A DNA stretch of 64,000 nt from an uncultured Alphaproteobacteria bacterium (GTDB taxonomy: Bacteria > Pseudomonadota > Alphaproteobacteria > Micropepsales > Micropepsaceae): contig CADEFU010000004.1 of NCBI GenBank assembly GCA_902826695.1, positions 186,001 through 250,000 of the forward strand, read 5' to 3'. Every line of letters starts with the position of its first letter. The first letter of the stretch is position 1. Both the position numbers and the translations under genes were made by a program. The notes under the pieces were generated by a model. That model saw only the letters and a program-made list of their open reading frames with translations, had not been told where the DNA came from and made no database searches. Shown here piece by piece: positions 6,116 through 28,609 of the stretch.

Positions 6116-7386
<1,271 letters not shown>

Positions 7387-25547: not shown

Positions 25548-26315
25548 TTACTTCGCCTCCGCGAAGACGACGTAACGTAACGGCCCGCGCTCGACCGCGT
25601 CGAAAGGATAGCAGGTGACAAGCGCGAGTCGCTGGGTCTTTGCCTTTGTCGCGATGCCCGATGCGCCCGCATGCACGATGGTCGAGCCGGTCATGCGGTA
25701 GCGCACTGTCTTGCGCTCCGGCGTTTCGATCACGATCTCGTCGCCAACCTTCAGGTGCTTGATGAAGCTGAAATGCGTATCGCGGTGCCCGCCGATCACG
25801 CTTACCCCGGCCGCACCCGGCTTCGGCGACGCCGCCACATGCGCAGGCCCGAACGCCATCGCCTCGCCTCCTGCTTCTTGCAGCACGATCGCGGTCTCGT
25901 TCAGCGTTGGAAACGAGATCCGTGCGAGAGGCCACGTATCCGCCCAGCTCCAAGCCTTCGTCGGCTTGCCGGTCGCAAGCGTCGTCTCCCAAGCGCGATC
26001 GAGCAACACCTGCGCGAGCACGGCCTTGGCTTGGATAAGCAATGCGTGACCGAGAAAATAGCAGCCGACCAAGATCATCGCCGCCGCGAGGATCTTTGTG
26101 GCGTACGCACCCAGTCGATCAAGCTTGAAAGTACGTGAAACGCCAGGCAGGCCAAGCCGCTCTGCCTGCTCGGCGAAGCCTCCTCGCGCGAAGCGCGCAA
26201 CGCTGGCGCTTCGCGCCGCCGAAGCGCCATACCAGCTGGCGTGCATGGCTTGGCGTGCTTGGCGTTCCAATCTGTCTTCGTCTTCCATCTGCAGTATTTC
26301 GGCGGGCGCTAGCAT
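25548..26315 (-). CDS. Class GN sortase
   Basis: A sortase transpeptidase of the Gram-negative class GN (TIGR03784-like), expected to cut a C-terminal sorting signal of one dedicated partner at the inner membrane. The 255 residues comprise an unusual 70-residue, charged N-terminal cytoplasmic part, a membrane helix at about 73-92, and an outward-facing sortase domain. The catalytic triad is visible as H177 (GGHRDTHF), C235 (LVTCYPF) and R247 (GPLRYVV). The VIT/VWA gene directly upstream encodes its likely only substrate. The spacing of 62 bases holds a strong hairpin, and GGGAG precedes the start. Confidence 0.92.
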   Translation of the reverse strand: MLAPAEILQMEDEDRLERQARQAMHASWYGASAARSASVARFARGGFAEQAERLGLPGVSRTFKLDRLGAYATKILAAAMILVGCYFLGHALLIQAKAVLAQVLLDRAWETTLATGKPTKAWSWADTWPLARISFPTLNETAIVLQEAGGEAMAFGPAHVAASPKPGAAGVSVIGGHRDTHFSFIKHLKVGDEIVIETPERKTVRYRMTGSTIVHAGASGIATKAKTQRLALVTCYPFDAVERGPLRYVVFAEAK

Positions 26316-26336
26316 CGTCGTTCTCCCGTTGGTGGT

Positions 26337-26368
26337 CCCCTCCCCCGCTTGGTAGAGCGAAGGAGGGG
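26337..26368 (-). promoter_or_regulatory. Stem-loop between the sortase substrate and sortase genes
   Basis: CCCCTCC (26337-26343) pairs with GGAGGGG (26362-26368). After a 2x2 mismatch, CGCT (26346-26349) pairs with AGCG (26356-26359) around a six-base loop. It starts nine bases past the substrate stop and ends about 20 before the sortase start. No T-tract follows, so it is more likely a partial terminator or an mRNA-stability element tuning the enzyme-to-substrate ratio. Confidence 0.45.
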
Positions 26369-26377
26369 TAATGGTGC

Positions 26378-28609
26378 TCAGGCCTTCTGTTTGCGTGGCG
26401 TGAGGAGGAGCATCACGCCCGAGGAGAGGAACAGAAGGCCGATCACCAACTTCAGCACGGTGCCCGCGTCGCCCTGGGGAAGCGCTACGCCGTCGCCGTC
26501 CTTCGCGGTCACGGCCTTGTCGGAGCCTGCGAGCTTCTTGAGCAGTTCCTGATCGACCGACGCCTTGATCAGCGGGTTCGACGGGTCTTCACCGAAGACT
26601 TTCTCGAAGTTCCAACCGTGCGGCAGGTTCGTCGGCATCTCATGGCTGCTGAGCATTTCCCCGACCGGACGGCTCGGCGTCACGTCGACCGCAACAAGGC
26701 TCGTCAACCGCGACACCAGATGATGGTCGAGCGCCACCTTCAGCACCGCCACATCGATGTCGCCCTCGTTCGCGCCTTTGTAGCGCGTCGACTCGATCGA
26801 CGTGATCTTCGAGCGCGCCCACAACTTCGACACGCCCGAACCTTCGACGGCCGTCGCAAGATCGAGGGTCGTTGCCCACGGCGTCGTGCCCATGCGGCCG
26901 GTGATGTTCACCTTGCCCGACTGCGAGCCCGTCACCGCGGTCAGCACCACCGGCTCACCCGCATAGAGATCCGGTATCGGGTTCGGCGAGGTCTCAAGCT
27001 TCACGCCGTCGGCCACGCGCAAGTCCGTCATCACGGGCGTTTCGAGCTTGTTGAAGAGCTCGGCCATCCGCGCGACGACTTCCGACTCCGACCCGATATG
27101 CGTGAACGTCCCGCGGCCCTGTGCCGCGATGTGCTCCATCAGGTAAGAGTTCGGCGCCGAACCGATGCCGACCGTGAACAGACGCGAACGGCCCAGCGAC
27201 TTGCCGATTTCCTGCAACACCTGGTCTTCGTTGCCCACGGCGCCGTCGGTCAGGAAGATCACCTGCCGCAAGCGCGAAGCGTCTGTCGGCGTCAGATCGG
27301 AAAGCGCGGCCTGGAGTGCAGCGTAAATCTCGGTGCCGCCGTTCGCGTCAAGCCCGCTGACGAAGTTCGCCGCAACCTTCAGGTTCGTCTCGTTTGCCGG
27401 AACGGCCGACTTGAAGAGCACGTCGAACGTGTCGTCGAAACGAATGACGTTGAACTTGTCTTCCGGCTTCAGCTTCGTCAGCCCGAGCAGCAACGCTGCC
27501 TTCGCCTGCCGCATGGATTCGCCGGCCATCGAGCCGGAATTGTCGATCACGAAGATCGCTTCGCGCGGCTGACGCACCTTCGCGGTGCTTGCCGGGGGAA
27601 CGATCATCGCGAGGTAGTAGTTGTCCGCCCCGATCGTCTCACGGAACAACGTTGCCTGCGGCATCGCGTTCGCCGCAACTTTCCAGTTCAAGACGAAGTC
27701 GCGATCGGCCGGCACGTTTCCGTCGATCGTGACCGTCGCCGACTGCGCATCCGGACGCTCGATCTTCGCCTGATGGAACTGGCTCTCAACCACCGCCAAC
27801 GATACGCCAGACTTCAACTTCACGCTCAGCGACACCGGATTGATCTTCCCGAATTTCGGGTGGATCACCGGCGGCGTGATCTTGTGCGCGTCTTTCACGA
27901 CAGTCGGCGTCGCGACGATCACGCTCTCGTCCGTGTAGGCGACCAGAAGCGGTTCGCCGCTCGGCGCGATGTAACGCGGGCCCACGACGAGCGGCACGCG
28001 CAGCTGGAACTTGTCGCCGTCGAGCTTGACGGCTTCCTGATATTCGAACTGCACCACGACCGTTTCGCGTGGCCCGATATTCGCGACAGAGTTCGTGAAC
28101 ATGTTCGGCCGCTGCTGTTCGATCAGCGTCGCCTTGTAGCCCTCGGCCGCCGCCTTTTCGTAAATCTGGCGCGCCTCGACGCGCTCCTTGACCTTGCCTT
28201 CCAGGAACTTGTCGCCAACCTGCATCTTCAGCGTGTCGACCGCTGCGTTCTGGGGCAGTGGGTAAACGTAGATGCCTTCGACCCATTTGTCGGACGGGTT
28301 TTCGAAGCGTTGGGTGATGACGGCCCGCGCAGTCGGCCCGGTGACGGTGATGGAGACATCGGTCTTGAGGCGCGGCGCCTCCAAGAACTTGCCGCCTTCG
28401 GTCGTCTTCAGAAGCAGCGCACCGGTGTGCATGTCGTCGGGGGTGACGAGCACGGCCGGTTCCGGCTGAACTTGCGGCGCCGGTTGCGCGAAACTGGCGG
28501 GTCCAACCGCGATGGTGGTTAAGGTAGCCGCGCTTGCGATCAAGCTTGCGCGCAACAAAACGCCCGGCGAGCCCCAAGGCCCCCCGCGCGAGAGCAGATA
28601 CGGTTTCAT
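26378..28609 (-). CDS. VIT and von Willebrand A domain protein, class GN sortase substrate
   Basis: A 743-residue surface or periplasmic protein of the 'marine proteobacterial sortase target' family (TIGR03788-like). From the ATG at 28609, preceded by GAGGG, it has a long signal sequence to about residue 40. A VIT domain (LKTDVSITVTGPTARAVITQ, KWVEGIYVYPLP) follows, then a VWA domain with the MIDAS motif VIDNSGSMAG. At the C-terminus are a spacer, a membrane helix and a basic tail (TPRKQKA). The expected LPxT-type signal is replaced by LPQGD at 710-714 before the helix. The sortase follows on the same transcript. An AraC regulator lies 149 bases upstream. Confidence 0.92.
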   Translation of the reverse strand: MKPYLLSRGGPWGSPGVLLRASLIASAATLTTIAVGPASFAQPAPQVQPEPAVLVTPDDMHTGALLLKTTEGGKFLEAPRLKTDVSITVTGPTARAVITQRFENPSDKWVEGIYVYPLPQNAAVDTLKMQVGDKFLEGKVKERVEARQIYEKAAAEGYKATLIEQQRPNMFTNSVANIGPRETVVVQFEYQEAVKLDGDKFQLRVPLVVGPRYIAPSGEPLLVAYTDESVIVATPTVVKDAHKITPPVIHPKFGKINPVSLSVKLKSGVSLAVVESQFHQAKIERPDAQSATVTIDGNVPADRDFVLNWKVAANAMPQATLFRETIGADNYYLAMIVPPASTAKVRQPREAIFVIDNSGSMAGESMRQAKAALLLGLTKLKPEDKFNVIRFDDTFDVLFKSAVPANETNLKVAANFVSGLDANGGTEIYAALQAALSDLTPTDASRLRQVIFLTDGAVGNEDQVLQEIGKSLGRSRLFTVGIGSAPNSYLMEHIAAQGRGTFTHIGSESEVVARMAELFNKLETPVMTDLRVADGVKLETSPNPIPDLYAGEPVVLTAVTGSQSGKVNITGRMGTTPWATTLDLATAVEGSGVSKLWARSKITSIESTRYKGANEGDIDVAVLKVALDHHLVSRLTSLVAVDVTPSRPVGEMLSSHEMPTNLPHGWNFEKVFGEDPSNPLIKASVDQELLKKLAGSDKAVTAKDGDGVALPQGDAGTVLKLVIGLLFLSSGVMLLLTPRKQKA

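Follow-up and report, generated by a model that had tools for sequence, protein, structure and literature searches.

Glycine in place of threonine at the inferred cleavage position of a class GN sortase target, and a sortase residue that covaries with it

The threonine at P1 is usually taken as a fixed letter of sortase motifs. One comparison of the sortase classes placed the variation between them at P4, P3 and P1' (PMC8361268). In class GN, a sortase (TIGR03784) is encoded next to a dedicated VIT/VWA target (TIGR03788; PMC3237569). The role of these enzymes in Gram-negatives was still called unknown in a 2023 paper (PMC10581121), and no functional study of them was found in the literature searched. 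The closest solved relatives of the enzyme described here, by profile, are class D sortases, the SrtD proteins of B. anthracis (2ln7, E 3e-24) and C. perfringens (4d70), whose motif is LPxTA; LPxTAT, the motif most GN targets carry, is similar to LPxTATN, which is named in NCBIfam. A change of P1 preference, to Ser, has been brought about by laboratory evolution in S. aureus eSrtA(4S-9), which carries nine mutations and is specific for LPXSG (PMC9126251).

How does the present locus compare? It lies in a window of 64,000 nucleotides (contig CADEFU010000004.1, positions 186,001 to 250,000) from an uncultured alphaproteobacterium of the Micropepsaceae. (P1 here denotes the fourth motif letter, the inferred cleavage position, according to the placement of the motif used in this analysis.) Like other class GN systems, it matches both models well above their cut-offs, and its sortase gene lies beside that of a dedicated VIT/VWA target, the arrangement described in PMC3237569. 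What distinguishes it from the usual pair is a P1 Gly where Thr would stand, a continuation of DAGT in place of AT, and Met at sortase residue 153. From class D it is set apart by its Gram-negative host, by the P1 Gly and by its scores against the class D models (78.7 bits against a cut-off of 165 for class_D_sortase, and 82.8 against 140 for SrtD). The P1 preference is apparently changed here as it is in eSrtA(4S-9), but the change is natural and recurrent, leads to Gly, and tracks window residue 153, which by spacing corresponds to L97 of the S. aureus enzyme.

The gene pair and its LPQGD motif

The sortase gene (25548-26315, minus strand, 255 aa) matches TIGR03784 at 204.4 bits (cut-off 158.25) over positions 2-174 of the 174 in the profile, and the target gene (26378-28609, minus strand, 743 aa, with its ATG at 28609) matches TIGR03788 at 752.1 bits (cut-off 551.65) and contains Pfam VIT and VWA domains. 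The two genes adjoin and form the one pair in the genome, where the window sortase is the single Pfam Sortase match. Further substrates were sought with the LPxxDAGT pattern, which occurs at one site in the genome, the window target itself, and the neighbouring genes (a TIGR03862 flavoprotein, a weak thioesterase match, an AraC-type regulator, RecQ and RsgA) suggest no further partner. The initial annotation had described the catalytic residues of the sortase as retained, and all three were found: His177, Cys235 and Arg247 (codons 25785-25787, 25611-25613 and 25575-25577, minus strand) do not vary across the 35 sequences aligned. An AlphaFold2 model of the enzyme, with a mean pLDDT of 87, matches solved sortases of several classes.

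The expected architecture of the target is likewise present, with a signal-like stretch at the N-terminus, a hydrophobic helix near the C-terminus and a basic tail. Its C-terminus, ...DGVALPQGDAGTVLKLVIGLLFLSSGVMLLLTPRKQKA, runs from LPQGDAGT through the hydrophobic stretch to TPRKQKA. That the motif before the helix is LPQGDAGT, where LPxT would be expected, can be read directly from the DNA, in which LPQGD is encoded by CTT CCC CAG GGC GAC (26468-26482, minus strand). Gly, at the inferred P1 codon 26471-26473 (minus strand), stands at motif position 4 in place of the canonical Thr. The pair is a member of the known sortase/target family with a non-canonical motif.

A sequencing error that had turned LPQT into LPQGD was one explanation to be considered, and it is excluded by a sister species (G087), assembled independently, that encodes LPQGDAGT with other synonymous codons (CTG CCG CAA GGC GAT); moreover, going from Thr (ACN) to Gly (GGN) requires two base changes. 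This species is the only other one in the genus with LPQGDAGT, while the seven others with a readable pair have LPQTDAGT. The sortase has Met153 in the two LPQG species and Leu153 in the seven LPQT species, within near-identical surroundings. (The unusual DAGT continuation of the genus was also seen in L301, an LPQTDAGT pair retrieved when another class of Proteobacteria was searched.)

The long, charged N-terminal extension of the sortase had been put forward as a second oddity. It is real, but it is probably an inserted genomic repeat and not a clue to function. A dispersed element with inverted arms of 23 nt (26136-26158 and 26247-26269) forms an in-frame insertion near the sortase start (26136-26269); it encodes about residues 16-60, most of the extension, and has 14 further partial matches elsewhere in the genome. 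An LPQT relative with Leu153, G091, carries a diverged copy (68%) at the same place, and the sister species has a different repeat there (L120, about 7125-7290), with 37 matches in its genome. The start MLAPAE[IF]LQME is common to the three species, and confidence in the AlphaFold2 model is low over the extension, which looks like a tolerated insertion before the membrane helix rather than a functional domain. Since two different dispersed repeats, both in frame, occupy the same site in sister species, the sortase N-terminus would seem to be insertion-tolerant.

Glycine at P1 and sortase residue 153 in Proteobacteria

Is LPQGD an isolated oddity, as it had first appeared? It is not. The P1 letter was read in 212 adjacent sortase/target pairs from Proteobacteria, comprising a first set of 151 distinct pairs, sampled from the class and the phylum and with nine tails corrected by hand, and 61 further pairs. 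Few genomes came from the orders to which two other lineages with Gly belong. P1 is Thr in 172 pairs, Gly in 37, Ser in 2 and Ala in 1 (122, 26, 2 and 1 in the first 151), and typical Gly motifs are LPQGAT, LPQGST, LPKGAT, LPTGAT and LPAGST. Thr and Gly have been exchanged at least 14 times on the sortase tree of the combined set (at least 11 times in the first 151 pairs), which rules out a peculiarity of one genus. Nor is there one alternative motif common to all homologues, as might have been the case; members of the family have now LPxT, now LPxG. What is reported here as new is that Gly at P1 recurs in nature and tracks one sortase residue that, by alignment, would map to the P1 pocket.

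The lone pair with Ala (L116 in genome G006; VLAAGGTSA) allows an equally good reading, LAAGGT, in which P1 is Gly. Its motif, LAAGGTSAN, is degenerate and lacks the usual Pro; it lies next to a Met153 sortase, and its sister is an LPQGATDS pair (L114). Several VIT/VWA homologues without a nearby sortase (L098-L100 and L110-L113) have PEP-type C-terminal sorting signals instead, in line with the signal swapping described for this family (PMC3237569).

In an unguided scan, every sortase column was compared with the P1 letter, at first by independent pairs in the first 151 pairs. The outlier was the column of window residue 153 (codon 25857-25859, minus strand), Met within GGEA-M-AFGPAH. In this set, Leu153 accompanies Thr in 119 of 122 pairs and Met153 accompanies Gly in 21 of 26. 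The association was weaker in the 61 pairs held out but still held, with 6 Met and 5 Leu among Gly pairs and 2 Met and 48 Leu among Thr pairs (Fisher p 2e-4, uncorrected for kinship). For the 209 Thr and Gly pairs together, the counts are 167 Leu and 5 Met with Thr, and 27 Met and 10 Leu with Gly.

Because kinship inflates such counts, dependent and independent trait evolution were compared in a Pagel-type model (own script), with 313 column/residue tests on the same tree. Residue 153, which changed at least 13 times on the tree of the combined set, gave a likelihood ratio (LR) of 39.0 (p 7e-8, 4 degrees of freedom); the runner-up was residue 233 (Val233, codon 25617-25619, minus strand), with 16.7, and all other tests gave 14.6 or less. 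The LR for residue 153 was 63 on a tree built without sortase residues 148-161, and 46 on one built from the substrate body with the C-terminus left off. A stricter independent-pairs test, confined to well-supported branches, had about 6 usable pairs, with 4.3 as expected and 0.04 against; residue 153 was the best of all columns and non-significant after correction. The fitted Thr-to-Gly rates, which are rough, were 0.06 with Leu153 and 10.3 with Met153 on the first of three trees, 0.03 and 2.4 on the second, and 0.03 and 2.0 on the third. Since the rate is far higher with Met153 on all three, these estimates suggest that Met153 precedes or permits the change at P1.

Since Leu153 occurs in ten P1 Gly pairs and Met153 in five P1 Thr pairs, Met153 is neither strictly needed nor sufficient. 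It is not the sole route to P1 Gly, and other solutions exist. One of them could be Ala156, as the position equivalent to window residue 156 is Ala, not Gly, in six of the ten Gly/Leu153 pairs. (Among the pairs with Gly at P1 and Leu153, in which Ala is frequent at this position, are L270, L302, L308, L316, L317 and L141.) A joint rule, Met153 or Ala156, gained almost nothing over Met153 by itself, and positions 148, 156, 160 and 175 of the S1 pocket, considered as main determinants, each fell far below residue 153 in the correlated-evolution scan.

The same exceptions would be expected if the P1 side chain were only weakly read, so that Thr and Gly interchange freely by tolerated drift and Met153 is incidental, and some class A sortases are indeed reported to be promiscuous at P1 in vitro (PMC10763551; PMC11987632). 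However, drift of this kind does not sit well with a P1 that is essentially Thr or Gly only, rather than any of many residues, or with a correlated-evolution signal that, in 313 tests, sets a single pocket residue apart and is reproduced on other trees; it is an unlikely account of the data. Even less can be said for a degenerate motif in a pair that anchors nothing, with the C-terminal helix keeping the protein in the membrane. The usual P1 Thr is absent, as such decay would have it, and the LAAGGT of L116 is more degenerate still, but the sister species keeps the identical motif despite synonymous codon change, the catalytic triad is intact, and in many lineages P1 Gly has arisen along with a corresponding change in the sortase, so that the loss of anchoring is very improbable.

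The P1 pocket and the proposed mechanism

Where in the enzyme does residue 153 lie? In profile alignments to solved sortases (7f87, 7cfj), it aligns with the Leu of the class A LxxGAGTM motif. The S1 pocket of S. pyogenes SrtA (spySrtA) is formed by L113, L118, M125, A140 and V206 (PMC10763551), and the number of the LxxGAGTM Leu, L118, was deduced from spacings rather than from direct alignment: L118 and M125 are seven residues apart, as are window residues 153 and 160, while A140 and V206 precede the catalytic His and Cys, respectively, by two residues, as window residues 175 and 233 do. Window residue 153 would then be equivalent to spySrtA L118 and residue 233 to V206, both of which line the published P1 pocket, an assignment made by sequence alignment across sortase classes. 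By virtue of this alignment and spacing, the top two columns of an unguided scan would both fall in the S1 pocket. The residues that set specificity for the fourth motif letter in S. aureus SrtA are 104, 118 and 182 (PMC9126251), which correspond by spacing to window residues 160, 175 and 233.

This placement also bears on whether the P1 letter marks the scissile bond at all. Cleavage could have shifted elsewhere, for instance to either side of the conserved Thr in AT or AGT. Thr is common two to four residues past P1 in both types of motif (at P2' it is found in 141 of the 172 Thr pairs and 28 of the 37 Gly pairs), and S. pyogenes SrtA cuts alternatively when P1' is Leu (PMC10763551). However, if the Thr/Gly letter is indeed P1, the sortase residue that varies with it should line the S1 pocket, and residue 153 does align with a wall of that pocket; a shifted cleavage site is accordingly given hardly any credence.

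Most likely, to judge from the sequences, the sortase and its target work as a pair, cleavage follows the Gly, and Met153 adapts the pocket to this residue. Among the possibilities raised in the initial annotation, a changed specificity and cleavage after Gly are thus both favored by the recurrence of P1 Gly and its covariation with a residue of the pocket (by alignment), and the possibility that nothing is anchored is disfavored. The locus probably represents a working, dedicated class GN system of one enzyme and one substrate, with LPQG recognition and Met153 replacing Leu in the pocket. What the computation itself shows is the motif, the pairing, the recurrent Thr/Gly switches and the covariation with residue 153. 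In the ancestor of the window species and its sister, P1 would have changed from Thr to Gly and sortase residue 153 from Leu to Met, the longer side chain of which probably occupies the space vacated by the Thr methyl group. The sortase would recognize LPQG with Gly at P1, Cys235 would attack the carbonyl of this Gly, and the Gly-Asp bond would be cut, releasing the C-terminal helix part that starts at DAGT and handing the VIT/VWA protein to some amine acceptor in the envelope. The pocket contact is presumed, as are cleavage after Gly and anchoring, which are both carried over from the family. There is a somewhat better than even chance that this is a natural specificity switch, in which Leu or Met at residue 153 sets the preference for Thr or Gly, Met153 permits the passage from LPxT to LPxG, and naturally orthogonal sortases result.

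In a barely studied Gram-negative class, then, Gly has taken the place of the P1 Thr on many occasions, and motif scans that demand LPxT would overlook the LPxG substrates. With the covarying residue 153, the way in which sortases read P1 can be put to a direct test by one mutation, a matter relevant to protein ligation tools. Nature, it seems, has tuned the specificity of a sortase by a single residue.
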